From Reyranella humidisoli (GTDB taxonomy: Bacteria; Pseudomonadota; Alphaproteobacteria; Reyranellales; Reyranellaceae): a stretch of DNA of 64,000 nt. Under the pieces are notes generated by a model, which had not been told where the DNA came from, searched no databases, and worked only from the letters and a program-made list of their open reading frames with translations. Shown here in pieces: positions 5,512-12,248 of this stretch. The stretch lies in assembly GCF_019039055.1 (NCBI RefSeq), contig NZ_JAHOPB010000001.1, positions 1,674,001 to 1,738,000 of the forward strand. The letters are read 5' to 3'. Positions within the stretch are counted from its first letter, which is position 1. Each line of letters opens with the position of its first letter. The position numbers were made by a program, and so were the translations under genes.

Positions 5512-6642
5512 TCAGGCGGCCCAGTGCTGCATCATCTGCTCGCGGTGGTGATGGGCATCGCCCAGCAGCACCTCCGAGCTCTTGGCGCGCTTGAACCAGA
5601 GATGGGTGTCGTTGTCCCAGGTGAAGCCGATGCCGCCATGGATCTGGATGGCATGGACGGCCGTCTGCAGGGCCGCGTCGCTGGCGGCGGCCTTGGCGAG
5701 CGATGCCACGGCGACGATATCGTCGTCACCCTCGTCGAGCGCGGCGGCGGCGTAGTAGGCCGCCGACTTGGCCAGCTCCACGTCGACCAGCATGTCGGCA
5801 TGCTTGTGCTTCATCGACTGGAACGAGGCGATGGCGCGGCCGAACTGCATGCGCATCTTGGCGTATTCCAGCGAATCCTCGCGCAGGCGGTCGGAGACGC
5901 CGGCCATTTCGTTGGCCAGGCAGACCGCAGCCTCGACCATGGTACGGGCGAACGGCGCGGCGGCGGCGCCGGCCTCGCCGAGCAGGGTCGCTTCCACGCC
6001 CTTGAAGTCGAGGTGGGCGAGTTTGCGGGTCTCGTCCATCGTCTTCAGCAGCTTGCGCGACAGGCCCTTGGCGTCGCCCTTCACGGTGAAGAGCGAGAGG
6101 CCCTTGTCGCCGCTGCTGCCGGGGGCGCGGGCGAGGACCACGATGAGATCGGCGGTGTGGCCGTCGAGGACGTAGCTCTTGAAGCCGTCGAGGACGTATC
6201 CCGAACCGGACGGCTTGGCCGTCAGGGTCGTGGCCGCGGCATCCCAGCGGGACGGCTGCTCGACCCAGGCGAGGGTGGCGACGGTGTCGCCGGCGGCGAT
6301 GCCGGGCAGCAGCGCCTGCTTCTCGGCTTCCGTGCCGGCATTGAGGATCGCGCCGGTGGCCAGCACGGCGGTCGAGAAGAACGGCGCGCAGAGCAGCGAC
6401 CGGCCCATCTCCTCCAGCACGATGCAGAGTTCGCCGAAGCCGAAGCCCTGGCCGCCAAAAGCCTCGGGAATGCGCACGGCAGTCAGGCCGAGTTCGCTGT
6501 TGAGCTTGCGCCAGGCAGCGGCCTCGAAGCCGGCGTCGGTCGCCATCAGGCGGCGCACTTCCTTGGTGGGCGAACGCTCGCCCAGGAAGCGGCGCAGGTT
6601 CGACCTGAACTCTTCCTGCTCGCTGGAGAAACTGAACTTCAT
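5512..6642 (-). CDS. Acyl-CoA dehydrogenase family protein (second of the pair)
   Basis: A 376-residue acyl-CoA dehydrogenase whose closest style is the smaller partner of paired FadE enzymes. The C-terminal active-site loop reads IHGGIGFTWDNDTHLWFKRA instead of the GGTxEIQRN type seen in its neighbour. ATG at 6642 is preceded by a good GGGAGG box, which lies inside a hairpin (see 6653-6681). It is the upstream gene of the two-gene operon. In-frame sequence further upstream is GC-rich non-coding sequence and is not part of the protein. Confidence 0.9.
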   Translation of the reverse strand: MKFSFSSEQEEFRSNLRRFLGERSPTKEVRRLMATDAGFEAAAWRKLNSELGLTAVRIPEAFGGQGFGFGELCIVLEEMGRSLLCAPFFSTAVLATGAILNAGTEAEKQALLPGIAAGDTVATLAWVEQPSRWDAAATTLTAKPSGSGYVLDGFKSYVLDGHTADLIVVLARAPGSSGDKGLSLFTVKGDAKGLSRKLLKTMDETRKLAHLDFKGVEATLLGEAGAAAAPFARTMVEAAVCLANEMAGVSDRLREDSLEYAKMRMQFGRAIASFQSMKHKHADMLVDVELAKSAAYYAAAALDEGDDDIVAVASLAKAAASDAALQTAVHAIQIHGGIGFTWDNDTHLWFKRAKSSEVLLGDAHHHREQMMQHWAA

Positions 6643-6652
6643 AAAACGAATC

Positions 6653-6681
6653 CTCCCAGTGCCGATTTTAGGCACTGGGAG
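6653..6681 (-). promoter_or_regulatory. Hairpin overlapping the acyl-CoA dehydrogenase ribosome-binding site
   Basis: CTCCCAGTGCC (6653-6663) and GGCACTGGGAG (6671-6681) make a perfect 11-bp stem with a 7-nt loop. On the transcribed (minus) strand the 3' arm contains the GGGAG of the Shine-Dalgarno for the gene starting at 6642, so a folded leader would hide the ribosome-binding site. It could equally be a protein operator, or a weak terminator for the cellulase gene upstream. Confidence 0.55.
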
Positions 6682-6748
6682 AGATGACCGGAAGCGCCCC
6701 CGACGGGTCGGAGATTGCAGGGCGAGACGCCGACGCGGCGTCACCGCC

Positions 6749-9700
6749 TCACAGGTCGAGCAGGTCGATGTGCACCGTCGACGGGTTCTGCGCGCCGGCG
6801 GCCACGAAACCGAAGCTGGTTTCGCCGTCATGGGCGATCGTTCCGTTGTGGGAGGTATTGCCGATCACGTAGCCGCTCGCATCGTGCGACACGATGACGG
6901 CGTTCCAGATGTCGGTGATCTGGTTGGTCGTCTCGATCTTGACCTGCCAGCCCGTGACCGTGGCGTCGCCCTCGTTCTCCAGGGTCACGCTGCCGTTGAA
7001 GCCGCCCGACCAGGAATTGACGATCGCGAACATGGCCTCGAGATCGCCCGAGCCCGACGGCTCCGTCGGGGTGGTGGGAGTCGATGGCGTGGTTGATGTC
7101 GTCGGCGCGGTGTCGTCGTCGACGATTGTGCCGGTGCCGGTGGCGCGCGTGATCGTGGCGCCCACCGCGTTGCTGAGGACGACGCCGAAATGCTCGTTGC
7201 CCTCGACCAGTCTGTCCGGGCTGATCTCGATCGTGATCGTCTTGCTCTGTTCGCCGGCCGCGAAGGTGACGTGGCCGTTCTCTGCGATGAAGTCAGCCGC
7301 GCCGGCCTCGCCGTAGACGGTCTGGTAATCCACGGTCACTTCGTGCGTCGCGGCTTCCGAAAGCGTCAGCACGAAGCTCGCGCTCGGACCACTCGGCGCG
7401 CCTCCGTCGCCCGGCGCATCCTCGTGGAACTGGTATTCGATGGGCGTGAGGTAGCCCATCTTCGTCTGGTTCACGGTGTTCCAGTTGTCGTTCAGGATGC
7501 CCCCGGTGTCGCCCGAGTTGGGGTTCCACGACCAGAAGGTCCAGCTCGGCCCCTTCTGTCCCGGTGCCAGGTCGGACGTGCCGTCGTTGTTGAAGTCGCC
7601 ACCAAGATACGAGGTGATCGCTTCCAGCCAAGGTGCATCCTTCGGGTCCACCAGCTTGGTGCCGAACTCGCCGATCCACACGGGCGCGATGCCTTCCTTG
7701 TAGATGTAGCCCCACATCTGGTCGAACTTGGCGGGCAGGTTCGCCGGGAAGTCGGGGCCCTGGAACCATGACTGCTCGTAGACCGAGTTGGGATAGTCGT
7801 GCGCCGAGTAGACCAGCTTGTTGTCGAGCGCGAGGTCGATCGGCCGGTCGCGCACGCCCATCAGGTTGCCGCCCCACCAATAGCTCTGGCCGTTGTAGGT
7901 GCCGATGCCTTCGACGAAGATCAACCAGTTGGGGTTCACCGTGCCGATGGCGTTGCCGGCCGTCTCCGCCGCCAGCGCCCAGTCGTTGGCGCCGCCGCTG
8001 CCCCAGGTACCGTTGTAAGGCTCGTTGTGCAGGTCCGCACCGATGACCGACTGATCGTCGGCATAGCGCGCCGCCAGCATCTTCCAGTCGTTGATCCAGG
8101 CCGACTGCGTATACTGGCTGTTGTACCACAGGCCATTCTCGGACGTGCCGGCCCCGGCATTGCTGCGGTGATGGTCGAGGATGATCTTGAGGCCGATCTC
8201 GTTTGCATAGTCGACGATCTTGTCCATGACCTGCAGCGCCGACAGGCCCTGCAGGTCCGGGTTCTTGCTGAAGTCGATGCCGTTCGGCGCGGTCGTCGTA
8301 TGCAGCATCTCGCTCGAGAAGGGCATGCGGATGGTGTTGAAGCCCAGATCCACCATCTGGTCCATCATGTCCTTGTAGCCGCGCGTCCACAGGCCGTGCG
8401 GCGCGAAGGTCGACGATTCGAAGCCGAACCAGTTCACGCCGGCGATCTGCACCGAGTGTCCGGCCGAGTCGATGATCTGGTTGCCCGAGGTGCTGAGCCA
8501 GCCGGGCGCCGCCCCGCTGCCGGGATTGCCCTCGATCACCGTCGCGTCGGAAATGCCGAGCGTCGGGCCGGCCGGCGCATCGTCGTTGACGATCGTGCCG
8601 GCACCGGTCGCGTCGGCGATGGTCGCGCCGGTCGGGCTCGACAGGACGACGCTGAAGCCTTCGTTGGCTTCAACGGCCGAATCGCCAGTCGTGGCGATCT
8701 GAATCGTCTTCTGCGTCTCGCCCGCTGCGAAGGTGAGCGTGCCGGATTGCGCGACATAGTCGCTGCCGGCAAGCGCCGTGCCGTTGGCCGTCGCGAAATT
8801 CACGGTGACCGGCGAGGTGGAGGCCGCGGACAGGCTCACGGTGAAAGTGGTCTGGCCGGGCGTTGCCGCGCTGCCTTCGGCGGACGAGGCGTCGTTGATC
8901 GAGAGCGAGGGCAGGGCGGTGGCGCTGTCGTCGTTGACGATGGTGCCGAGCGCGCTGCCGTCCCTGATCGTGGCGCCGGTCGGCGAGGTGAGGTTGACCT
9001 TCAGGGTCTCGCTGGCCTCGACCGCCGTGTCGCCGGTCACCTGGACGCGGATGACCTTCGACGTCTCGCCGGCGGCGAATGTCAGCAGGCCCGACTGGGC
9101 GACATAGTCCTGGCCGGCTTTGGCGGTGCCGTTGGTGGTCGCATAGGCGACCGTCACCGGGCCGGACGTCGCCGCGGACAGGCTGACGGTGAAGGCCAGC
9201 TCGCTGGCGCCGCTGTTGCCCTCCGTCACCGTGGCGTTTGCAATCGTGATCGTGGCGTCGTCGTTCACGATCGTCCCGATGCCAAGGCGGTCGGCGATCT
9301 TGCCGCCGGTCGCTCCGGTCAGGTTGATCTTCAGCGTATCGTTGCCTTCGATGATCGTATCGCCGGTGACCTTGATGTTGATCACCTTGGAGGTCTCGCC
9401 GGGCGCGAAGGTGACCGTGCCGGTCTGGGCGACGTAATCCAGCCCTGCCTTGGCCGTGCCATCCTCGGTGCCGTAGGTCACGCTCACCGGGCCGGTGGTG
9501 GCCTCCGAAAGGGTGATCGTGAAGGCGAGATCGCGCGTGCCGCCGTCGCCTTCCTTCACAGTGGCGTCGGCGATGGTGATCCTGGGGACGATGACGTCGT
9601 CGGTGAGGACCGTGCCGACCGCCGCGCCGTCGGCGATGGTGGCGCCGCTCGGGGCGGAAAGAGTGAGCGCCAGCGTCTCGTTCAGCTCGGCGACCTTGTC

Positions 9701-10246
9701 GCCGTTCACCGTGATGCTGATGGTCTTCTGCGTCTCGCCGGCGGCGAAGGTGATGGTGCCCGACTTGGCGACGTAGTCCGAGCCCGTCGTGGCGGTGCCG
9801 TCGGCCGTGGCGTAGGCGACCGTAACGGGACCGGTCGCGGCCTTGGACAGGCTGACCGTGAAGTTCATCTGAACGGCGCCGCTGTTGCCCTCGATGACCG
9901 AGGCGTCGCCGACCGAGATCGTCGGCAGGACCGGCGGCGGCTCCTCGCCAACGCCGTTCAGCTCCAGCCCAGTCGTCGTCGTGCCGCCCGAGGCGCCGGG
10001 AGTCGCCTGGAAGCCGAAGGTGACGCTCCCGCCGGACGAGACGTCGCCGTTGTAGGAGGCATTCCGGATGACGTAGTGGGTGCCGACGCGGCTGACGATC
10101 TCGGCGCCCCAGATATTCGTGATGGTGTAACCGGCATCGAACTCGACGGTCCAGCCATGGAGGCTACCCGTGCCGGCATCGACGGTCATGTTGCCGATGA
10201 AGCCGGAACCCCAGTTGTCCTTGACCGTGTACTTGACCGTAGCCAT
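6749..10246 (-). CDS. Large multidomain cellulase: CBM2 - Calx-beta repeats - GH5 - Calx-beta - CBM2
   Basis: A 1165-residue putative extracellular endoglucanase. Approximate domains: CBM2-like cellulose-binding 4-100; Calx-beta repeats 107-217, 221-330, 331-440 and 445-556; the start of a fifth Calx-beta 561-575; GH5 cellulase 580-942; the remainder of that Calx-beta 952-1045; a Thr/Pro linker; CBM2-like 1069-1165. GH5 catalytic residues are Glu742 in LHNEPY (acid/base) and Glu860 in WIGEFGT (nucleophile). The ATG at 10246 follows a GGAGGG box. No Sec or Tat signal peptide is present, so export, if it occurs, needs another route such as type I secretion. It is divergent from a LytS/LytTR pair that may control it. 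Confidence 0.92.
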   Translation of the reverse strand: MATVKYTVKDNWGSGFIGNMTVDAGTGSLHGWTVEFDAGYTITNIWGAEIVSRVGTHYVIRNASYNGDVSSGGSVTFGFQATPGASGGTTTTGLELNGVGEEPPPVLPTISVGDASVIEGNSGAVQMNFTVSLSKAATGPVTVAYATADGTATTGSDYVAKSGTITFAAGETQKTISITVNGDKVAELNETLALTLSAPSGATIADGAAVGTVLTDDVIVPRITIADATVKEGDGGTRDLAFTITLSEATTGPVSVTYGTEDGTAKAGLDYVAQTGTVTFAPGETSKVINIKVTGDTIIEGNDTLKINLTGATGGKIADRLGIGTIVNDDATITIANATVTEGNSGASELAFTVSLSAATSGPVTVAYATTNGTAKAGQDYVAQSGLLTFAAGETSKVIRVQVTGDTAVEASETLKVNLTSPTGATIRDGSALGTIVNDDSATALPSLSINDASSAEGSAATPGQTTFTVSLSAASTSPVTVNFATANGTALAGSDYVAQSGTLTFAAGETQKTIQIATTGDSAVEANEGFSVVLSSPTGATIADATGAGTIVNDDAPAGPTLGISDATVIEGNPGSGAAPGWLSTSGNQIIDSAGHSVQIAGVNWFGFESSTFAPHGLWTRGYKDMMDQMVDLGFNTIRMPFSSEMLHTTTAPNGIDFSKNPDLQGLSALQVMDKIVDYANEIGLKIILDHHRSNAGAGTSENGLWYNSQYTQSAWINDWKMLAARYADDQSVIGADLHNEPYNGTWGSGGANDWALAAETAGNAIGTVNPNWLIFVEGIGTYNGQSYWWGGNLMGVRDRPIDLALDNKLVYSAHDYPNSVYEQSWFQGPDFPANLPAKFDQMWGYIYKEGIAPVWIGEFGTKLVDPKDAPWLEAITSYLGGDFNNDGTSDLAPGQKGPSWTFWSWNPNSGDTGGILNDNWNTVNQTKMGYLTPIEYQFHEDAPGDGGAPSGPSASFVLTLSEAATHEVTVDYQTVYGEAGAADFIAENGHVTFAAGEQSKTITIEISPDRLVEGNEHFGVVLSNAVGATITRATGTGTIVDDDTAPTTSTTPSTPTTPTEPSGSGDLEAMFAIVNSWSGGFNGSVTLENEGDATVTGWQVKIETTNQITDIWNAVIVSHDASGYVIGNTSHNGTIAHDGETSFGFVAAGAQNPSTVHIDLLDL

Positions 10247-10407: not shown

Positions 10408-11544
10408 ATGCCCAATCTTTCTCGGGAATTCAGCCGTCCCGCCCGGAGCGCCTCGACCTTGTCCGCACTTCTGCTTGCCCGGTGGAACGGCCTGTCTCTG
10501 TTCTGGCGGGTCCAGATCGCGGGCTGGGGGCTGTTCGCGATCGCCGACCTGTTGGCGCAGCGTATCGCCTTTCACAGCTTTTCGGTCGCCTTCGCCCGGA
10601 CAGGCCTCATTCTCGTCTGCCTGGTCGCGATTTCGACGGCGATGCGCGGCGTCTACGTCACGCATCGCTTCGCTCATCGCGTTTCGATCGGCGGTGTGGC
10701 GCTGATCGCGCTGCTCTCGCTGCTGGGAGCGCTCGTCGTCGCGAGCATGATCGTTCTGATCCATGAGGCTGTGCCCTGGATCGTGCCGCCCGACCGTCGT
10801 GGCGTCGAAGAGTTCTTCGTTCCATTCGTGCATTACTTCTTTGCCCTTGCGGGGTGGAGCCTCGCCTATTTCTGGCTGCGCGCAGAGATGGCGGAGCAGG
10901 CGCAGCATCGAAGGACAATGCGCGCCGAAGCCGAAGCCCTGCGGGCCGAACTCGAACAGCTTCGCCTGCAACTCGATCCTCACTTCCTGTTCAATGCCCT
11001 GAACGGTGTCGCGGAGGAGATCCCCGAGCACCCGACCGCGGCATTAGACATGCTCCGCAACCTCACCGCCTACCTCCGGCACTCGCTCGACGGCATAAGT
11101 CACACGGTTGTCACGGTGGAGAGCGAAGTGACGGGCCTCGCCGCCTACCTCGCCGTCCAGAAGGCGCGCTTTGGCGATCGCCTGCAGACACGGCTGGACG
11201 TGGCGCCGGAGGCCATGAGCCATCGTATCGCGAGCTTCCTGCTGCAGCCGCTGGTGGAGAACGCCGTCAAGCACGGGCGGCGCGAGCACGATCTCGATCT
11301 GCGCATCGTCATTCGCGCGAACGGCGATGCGCTTCATGCCGAGGTCTCGAATGCAGGAACGCTTGCCCCCGCCAATACACCGCGCCGCCAGCGCCTGGGC
11401 ATCGGCGTGGAGAATGTGCGGCGCCGGCTCGCGCTGCATTATCCCGGACGGCATGCTTTCGAGCTGCGCGAAGCGGGCGAACGGCCTGAAGAGAAGAGGG
11501 TGATTGCAACACTGGAGCTGAGGGGCGAGCCGTGCGGGTCCTGA
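10408..11544 (+). CDS. LytS/YehU-type sensor histidine kinase
   Basis: A 378-residue membrane sensor kinase of the His_kinase (PF06580) type. The N-terminal 155 residues hold about four hydrophobic segments. A short coiled coil (about 158-188) follows, then LQLDPHFLFNALN with phospho-accepting His192, and a C-terminal GHKL ATPase region (PLVENAVKHG, then LGIGVENVRRRL). It would pass phosphate to the LytTR regulator, whose GTG start overlaps its 3' end by 13 bp. The input signal is unknown. Divergence from the cellulase gene suggests control of polysaccharide degradation, by inference. Confidence 0.9.
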   Translation: MPNLSREFSRPARSASTLSALLLARWNGLSLFWRVQIAGWGLFAIADLLAQRIAFHSFSVAFARTGLILVCLVAISTAMRGVYVTHRFAHRVSIGGVALIALLSLLGALVVASMIVLIHEAVPWIVPPDRRGVEEFFVPFVHYFFALAGWSLAYFWLRAEMAEQAQHRRTMRAEAEALRAELEQLRLQLDPHFLFNALNGVAEEIPEHPTAALDMLRNLTAYLRHSLDGISHTVVTVESEVTGLAAYLAVQKARFGDRLQTRLDVAPEAMSHRIASFLLQPLVENAVKHGRREHDLDLRIVIRANGDALHAEVSNAGTLAPANTPRRQRLGIGVENVRRRLALHYPGRHAFELREAGERPEEKRVIATLELRGEPCGS

Positions 11545-12248
11545 TCGTCGATGACGAGGCGCTGGCCCGCAGCGCCATGCGGCGCTTGCTGGCGTCGCTT
11601 GCTCATGTGGAGATCGTGGGCGAGGCGGACAGCGCCGAGGAGGCCCGCACGCAGGTTGCGATGCTGCAGCCCGACCTGATCTTCCTCGACATCGAGCTGG
11701 GCGGCGGGAGCGACGGCTTCGACCTGATCGAGTCGCTGGAACGTCCGCCCATCGTGGTCTTCGTCACAGCCTTCGCGGAGCACGCGGTCGAGGCCTTCGC
11801 CGTGAATGCCGTGGATTACCTGCTGAAGCCGGTCGAGCCGGTCCGCCTCGAAGCGGCGCTGGCGCGGGCGGCGCGCCAGCTCGCGCTCTCGGCGCTGCCG
11901 CCGGGGCCGGGCGTGATCGAGCTCAGGACACCGCGGCGGACATTGTTCGCGACGCCGGGGGAGATCGTGGCGGTCTCCGCCGACGGCGACTTCACACGGG
12001 TCTTCGTGGCGGGCCAGCCGGCGGTGATGATCCTGCGTACCCTGGCGCATTTCGAGGAGCTGCTGCCGGCACCGCCCTTCGTGCGGCTGGGCCGGTCGGT
12101 GCTGATCAACCGCGACCGGCTGCGCAGCCTCGAAGCGCCGACGCGCTCGACCGGCCGTCTCGTGCTCGATGGCATGGCCCATCCCCTGACGATCGGCCGC
12201 GCCGCGACGGCCCGCCTGCGCGAGATCCTGGCGTCAGATAAAGGCTGA
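11532..12248 (+). CDS. LytTR family DNA-binding response regulator
   Basis: A 238-residue two-component regulator. The receiver domain (about 1-120) has the acidic pair in VDDEA, phospho-acceptor Asp53 in IFLDIE and the conserved Lys in DYLLKPVEP. The C-terminal half (about 140-238) is a LytTR DNA-binding domain with the GEIVAVSADGDFTRVF and FVRLGRSVLINRDRL segments. The start is GTG at 11532, inside the end of the kinase gene, which indicates translational coupling. Candidate binding repeats are at 10311-10362. Confidence 0.92.
   Translation: MRVLIVDDEALARSAMRRLLASLAHVEIVGEADSAEEARTQVAMLQPDLIFLDIELGGGSDGFDLIESLERPPIVVFVTAFAEHAVEAFAVNAVDYLLKPVEPVRLEAALARAARQLALSALPPGPGVIELRTPRRTLFATPGEIVAVSADGDFTRVFVAGQPAVMILRTLAHFEELLPAPPFVRLGRSVLINRDRLRSLEAPTRSTGRLVLDGMAHPLTIGRAATARLREILASDKG

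Follow-up and report, generated by a model that had tools for sequence, protein, structure and literature searches.

The gene considered here lies on the minus strand of a 64,000-nucleotide (nt) stretch of the Reyranella humidisoli genome (contig NZ_JAHOPB010000001.1, positions 1,674,001 to 1,738,000; the whole stretch is called the window) and encodes a protein of 1165 amino acids (aa) in which Pfam recognizes two CBM2 modules, five Calx-beta stretches and one GH5 domain. It is very probable that this GH5 domain is inserted in the A-B loop of the fifth Calx-beta repeat, i.e., that it is nested within the repeat and not appended to it. At the level of sequence, the split itself, its exact site, its conservation and the way in which the two halves complement each other are established. 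The parts of the gene, in window coordinates, are as follows:

6749..10246, minus strand: whole gene, 1165 aa; open reading frame (ORF), coordinates and residues confirmed
9953..10243, minus strand: N-terminal CBM2, residues 2-98 (Pfam PF00553)
9596..9925, minus strand: Calx-beta repeat 1, residues 108-217, intact (Pfam, strand-A matrix, strand B-G profile)
9257..9586, minus strand: Calx-beta repeat 2, residues 221-330, intact (Pfam, strand-A matrix, strand B-G profile)
8927..9256, minus strand: Calx-beta repeat 3, residues 331-440, intact (Pfam, strand-A matrix, strand B-G profile)
8579..8911, minus strand: Calx-beta repeat 4, residues 446-556, intact, internal control in model 1 (Pfam, matrix, profile, model 1)
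8522..8566, minus strand: strand A of Calx-beta repeat 5, residues 561-575, ahead of GH5 (position-specific scoring matrix (PSSM) score 29.6; DSSP strands in both models)
8531..8533, minus strand: E572, putative counterpart, by spacing, of the NCX CBD1 calcium ligand E385 (73/73 alignment rows)
7430..8506, minus strand: inserted GH5 endoglucanase domain (predicted), residues about 581-939 (Pfam; phmmer to 8fc0 and 1ece)
7112..7393, minus strand: strands B-G of Calx-beta repeat 5, residues 952-1045, with D985, D1011, E1015, E1018 and a terminal DDD (repeat alignment, conservation, profile)
6752..7048, minus strand: C-terminal CBM2, residues about 1067-1165, behind a Thr/Pro/Ser linker (Pfam; phmmer 1067-1155 to 6f7e)

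The split fifth repeat

The strand-A matrix was built from 11 intact repeats, with repeats 1-4 of this protein in the training set and the copy at 561 outside it. Along the protein, it picks out 15-mers at residues 108, 221, 331, 446 and 561 (scores 29.6-36.7) and reaches at most 9.0 elsewhere, while the profile of strands B-G finds Calx-beta remainders beginning at 129, 242, 352, 468 and 958. There are five strand As for five remainders. In repeats 1-4 the two are 6-7 residues apart, whereas 382 residues separate them in repeat 5. These counts bear out the sequence-only reading made earlier for the window, in which the fifth Calx-beta repeat begins at 561-575, is interrupted by GH5 and resumes at about 952. 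The Pfam Calx-beta match of repeat 5 (PF03160, 50.3 bits) covers only profile positions 29-117 of 119 because its strand A sits before GH5, away from 952-1045. In the repeat alignment repeats 1-4 are contiguous, whereas repeat 5 is whole only when 560-578 is restored ahead of 952-1045.

An uninterrupted counterpart is encoded in the same genome. This paralogue of 1015 aa (L067) contains four Calx-beta and two CBM2 domains by Pfam, which found no enzyme domain, GH5 included. Like repeats 1-4, its last Calx-beta repeat is uninterrupted; the linker and CBM2 behind it are of the same type as in the window protein, with whose residues 958-1165 it is colinear, so that the comparison with GH5-free counterparts also speaks for an interruption. 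Repeat 5 is 51% identical to this last repeat, 53% to repeat 4 and 56% to one repeat of L065. As it is no closer to L067 than to the others, the L067 repeat is a counterpart and not a proven ancestor. L065 is also a Calx-beta repeat protein of this genome, and both L065 and L067 are possibly cellulose-binding scaffolds or adhesins.

Two AlphaFold2 models were obtained. Model 1 (residues 445-1046, 44 rows) has a mean predicted local distance difference test score (pLDDT) of 84.6 and a predicted template modeling score (pTM) of 0.64, with DSSP strands at 447-450 and 453-456 in the intact repeat 4 and, at matching positions of repeat 5, at 562-565 and 568-571. The latter two strands appear again in model 2 (556-1050, 73 rows; pLDDT 84.8, pTM 0.73), which had no repeat 4 to borrow from. 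A DSSP strand is hydrogen-bonded, therefore a partner for 562-571 exists in the model, and since model 2 is without repeat 4 that partner is most likely the predicted 952-1045 sandwich. A complete 952-1045 Calx-beta fold that dispenses with 561-575 did not appear in either model. Alignment A3 consists of 42 of the 80 named loci described below, the window protein and L012; alignment A4, with 73 rows, leaves out L069, L072, L076, L084, L122, L124, L125 and L138.

The best solved structural match is CelE2 (PDB 8FC0; Z 56.9, 66% identity), whose chain B is aligned and resolved over 18-379. The deposited sequence opens with LSISDASATEPGSGGIAPGFL, i.e., with a strand-A motif (LSISDASATE) ahead of GH5. 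If the entry numbering is taken as sequence numbering, this strand-A piece (residues 1-17) is outside the resolved range of chain B; as that chain is resolved from 18, which is the GH5 border, the orphan piece goes unseen in it. The matches listed by the structural comparison (VIA-align) are GH5 barrels, and say nothing on Calx-beta neighbors.

Recurrence and descent of the nested layout

A search of 101 genomes, R. humidisoli included, found this GH5 in 34, all of the same genus. A class-wide search was positive in 4 of 240 genomes, again with R. humidisoli included, the other three not being nested. Further homologues were taken as the best 80 of at least 588 relatives among at least 596 pattern matches; they were ranked against a nested query, which biases these loci toward nested cases, such that the share of nested GH5 is not derivable from them. 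The close named matches are mostly Reyranella, and the 80 loci also include Xanthobacteraceae, Acetobacteraceae/Roseomonas, Microvirga, Albimonas and Mycobacteriaceae. The strand-A motif stands 1-11 residues ahead of GH5 in all 80; its score exceeds the best match inside the locus's own GH5 in 80/80 and the highest of 4000 shuffles in 61/80. Recurrence in every one of these loci rules out chance. The first set comprised 38 ORFs, drawn from the genus and from eight plasmid loci (38 of 39 GH5 ORFs, L010 being omitted as a copy of L001); strand A scored above all shuffles in 36 of them, and the two misses, L043 and L046, are both without Calx-beta behind GH5.

A ledger of strand As and remainders was drawn up for 88 ORFs (L040-L047, L068-L147 and the window; some loci yield more than one ORF). 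It holds 388 Calx-beta remainders, with 296 contiguous with strand A, 86 split and six for which no strand A was found; three of these six are divergent repeats, and the others fall at a contig edge, in a gene split by a stop codon and in an ORF that is apparently off-frame. GH5 lies between the halves in all 86 split cases, with gaps of 371-402, and a wider count with near-duplicates included gives 116 of 116 large gaps holding GH5. These ORFs were fetched by GH5, and the ledger cannot show that other enzymes never occupy the A-B loop. The single orphan strand A belongs to the stop-split gene L084. This gene and L032, both of Reyranella soli, are interrupted within the GH5 region by an in-frame TAG, which cuts strand A off from the remaining Calx-beta strands; intact copies occur in other species. 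A smaller interruption is seen in L066, a 1198-aa ORF whose last Calx-beta has about 40 extra residues mid-repeat.

In Azospirillum, L042, L044, L045 and L047 contain one Calx-beta remainder each, which is the split one. Because these proteins have a single, split Calx-beta, the split domain is no by-product of a repeat array. Insertion after strand A, as opposed to appending, is therefore a claim of the sequence-only reading that is well supported, by the complementary halves, the single-split Azospirillum homologues, the uninterrupted paralogue and the two models.

In a GH5 tree of 94 rows (86 nested, eight other; L084 left out), the nesting label needs three changes, two of them forced by starred branches. 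Azospirillum brasilense L043, which is without Calx-beta, stands beside the nested L042, and this placement suggests loss of Calx-beta. L149 and L150, with apparently appended GH5, belong to another family. The rows from Mycobacteriaceae cluster as a single clade among those of alphaproteobacteria, suggesting that their nested GH5 came through transfer, the root being uncertain. Long branches weaken the base of the tree, which neither shows nor excludes a single origin of nesting. Two contigs labelled as a Bifidobacterium breve metagenome-assembled genome (L124 and L125) also carry nested GH5 genes and fall among Mycobacteriaceae; they are probably misbinned or misnamed.

A putative calcium clasp and competing explanations

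In NCX CBD12, E385 coordinates Ca2, Ca3 and Ca4, with the participation of D446, D447, I449, E451 and D498-D500, while D421 serves as a ligand when CBD1 is isolated, and E454 is found at the Ca1 site (PMC3386913). The Calx-beta repeats of the window protein show sequence kinship with NCX CBD1/CBD2, and their calcium ligand positions are alike by spacing: E572, D985, D1011, E1015 and E1018 stand at matching positions, and the intervals D985-D1011-E1015-E1018 (26, 4, 3) equal those of D421-D447-E451-E454. To our knowledge, CBD1 and CBD2 carry no enzyme between strands A and B. In the 73-row alignment E572 is conserved in 73 rows, D985 in 73, D1011 in 72, E1015 in 71 and E1018 in 72. E572 is N-terminal of GH5, whereas D985, D1011, E1015, E1018 and the terminal aspartates are C-terminal of it. 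With putative ligands on both sides of the enzyme, calcium would hold both ends together, and we give about an even chance to a clasp in which calcium, through E572 and the C-terminal-side acids, fastens both GH5 ends to the Calx-beta stalk.

The mechanism we propose is that an Acidothermus E1-type GH5 endoglucanase occupies the A-B loop of a Calx-beta sandwich, where it would replace only a few loop residues. The chain would run through strand A, then the GH5 barrel folded outside the sandwich, then strands B-G, to which strand A would pair back. Calcium bound by E572, D985, D1011, E1015, E1018 and the terminal aspartates would clasp the ends of the enzyme, so that GH5 would hang near the stalk on two short tethers instead of one, and the terminal CBM2 modules would meanwhile hold the cellulose.

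Several observations weigh against this picture. Joining the two halves raised the profile score by a mean of only 0.2 bits, and 12 of 79 joined sequences beat their own controls (L084 and L122 were left out); loop length is perhaps to blame, and separate strand-A scoring and the ledgers were used in place of this test. The pLDDT of strand A is only about 71-76, and its partner strand is inferred, not read from coordinates or the predicted aligned error. The linkers 575-580 and 941-952 have pLDDT below 50 in model 2, which speaks against rigidity, and the rigid holding on the stalk that the sequence-only reading envisaged is not upheld. GH5 relatives without Calx-beta (L043, L046, L151-L154) or with GH5 appended behind an apparent Calx-beta end (L149, L150) tell us that the enzyme does not need nesting. 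With respect to calcium, the terminal aspartates are often lost (D1044 is kept in 48/73 rows and D1045 in 49/73), and the profile alignment of bacterial repeats to NCX stopped short of strand A, so that the match of E572 to E385 rests on spacing.

The flat joined-halves score and the modest strand-A pLDDT would also suit two truncated repeats, in which the pre-GH5 piece is a vestige, a second Calx-beta lacks its strand A, the halves are unpaired and GH5 merely lies between them; unequal crossing-over is easy in a repeat array. However, the nearly strict relation of one strand A per remainder across the 88 ORFs, the invariance of E572 (73/73), unexpected in a vestige, and the four Azospirillum proteins, which have no second Calx-beta as a source of one, make this improbable. 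It could also be argued that the piece is an N-terminal extension of the GH5 fold in this enzyme subfamily, given that it always stands directly before GH5 in the Calx-beta-bearing group, the CelE2 construct included. This idea is largely refuted and we regard it as very improbable: E1 and other GH5 relatives begin at about the equivalent of residue 581, without the piece, which in CelE2 (residues 1-17) precedes the resolved part of 8FC0 chain B; L043 and L046 are without the piece and likewise without Calx-beta; and the piece shares the pattern of strand A in intact repeats. Nesting of GH5 in the Calx-beta fold is thus retained, and within it a further alternative competes with the clasp only, namely that calcium has no role, Calx-beta being a plain spacer and E572 being kept for folding. 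To this we assign a somewhat less than even chance, considering that the calcium clasp is a prediction from sequence and that about one row in three has lost terminal aspartates, but that five ligand-equivalent acids flanking GH5, spaced as in NCX, are conserved in 71-73 of 73 rows.

Known relatives, gene context and significance

The pairing of GH5 and Calx-beta is already known; the nesting, real and conserved, appears to be the new part. CelE2 is a metagenomic endoglucanase whose publication names GH5 and Calx-beta as domains in its title (Pimentel et al., 2023, Enzyme Microb Technol 165:110206). Judging from the opening of its deposited chain, CelE2 is most likely nested too. Azospirillum “GH_5 - CalX-beta” cellulases were reported in 2011 with the order GH5 then Calx-beta, and the description of these cellulases there does not mention nesting (PMC3245306). 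They have both domains in common with the window protein, and related Azospirillum plasmid copies are split likewise; unlike the window protein, the Azospirillum forms have one Calx-beta only and a different N-terminal part. The position of the enzyme between two CBM2 modules, as described in the sequence-only reading, therefore holds for the window protein but is not a general rule. Acidothermus endocellulase E1 (1ECE) resembles the window protein in its GH5 domain, both by sequence (53% identity) and by fold (Z 51); its solved catalytic domain, however, is without the strand-A piece, and full-length E1 is not known to carry Calx-beta. No description of GH5/Calx-beta nesting was found in the literature searched, most subscription journals lying outside that search.

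Phages provide further relatives. This line began from a viral structure list, and loci L155-L158, L160-L166 and L169 are phage tail regions. A tblastn search with residues 556-1050 gave 34 phage records, and one with the N-terminal 95 aa of the product of the gene following GH5 in phage Pastis gave 31, with 30 accessions common to both. E1-like GH5 tail genes occur in Erwinia, Klebsiella and Serratia phages, followed by a gene that starts at Calx-beta strand B without strand A. Eleven phages were examined; in 10 of them the next gene, which follows that for GH5 at a distance of 9-81 nt, opens at strand B (53-74 bits), and Fifi011 gp6 opens likewise. The strand-A motif is present in the GH5 protein of S6 and Pastis (0/1000 shuffles each) and Fifi011 (2/300), is weaker in Hena1 (13/1000) and pEp_SNUABM_01 (49/1000), is not significant in phiEaP8 (142/1000) and Fifi067 (388/1000), and was not found by the same scan in the GH5 proteins of Pavtok, PEp14, SopranoGao, Parlo and Skulduggery. 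The N-terminal Calx-beta of S6 gp094 has been described, in passages that leave the missing strand unmentioned (PMC9544554). The A-B loop could conceivably be a calcium-stapled enzyme socket that is splittable between molecules, two phage tail proteins being joined by strand complementation in a trans form of the window's cis nesting; we consider this doubtful, and four examined phages with a truncated Calx-beta but no strand A speak against trans completion as a rule.

In the window, the gene starts with the ATG at 10246, immediately preceded by GGAGGGAAG, and no in-frame ATG, GTG or TTG lies further upstream. With CBM2 right at the protein start, this leaves no space for a Sec/Tat signal peptide; export of the 1165-aa protein without one, e.g., by type I secretion, is possible. 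The Pfam GH5 match (PF00150) spans residues 602-911 (E 9.7e-50), and the glutamates of its HNEP and GEFG motifs, E742 and E860, are invariant across the 24 rows of alignment A1. As is usual for GH5, E742 (8021-8023) would be the acid/base and E860 (7667-7669) the nucleophile. The relatives E1 and CelE2 are endoglucanases by database entry title, and the same activity is predicted for the window protein. A divergent pair adjoining the cellulase gene, a His_kinase-family sensor and a LytTR response regulator (Pfam; window 10408-12248), might regulate it. Downstream, the listed ORF start of an acyl-CoA dehydrogenase (window 5512-6831) overlaps the end of the cellulase gene; its translation probably begins at the ATG near 6642.

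Family-based annotation reads this layout as GH5 then Calx-beta, and as a result constructs that delete one domain cut the Calx-beta fold and remove the invariant glutamate. Enzymes of this layout excised earlier may have had their Calx-beta split unnoticed, and the deposited CelE2 chain does open with the orphan strand. Judging the role of Calx-beta in such cellulases calls for constructs made at the true borders. The nested layout recurs across many soil bacteria, and offers a natural, recurrent case of a catalytic barrel within a calcium-type beta-sandwich, in which the idea of a calcium-dependent tether at two points can be put to a direct test.

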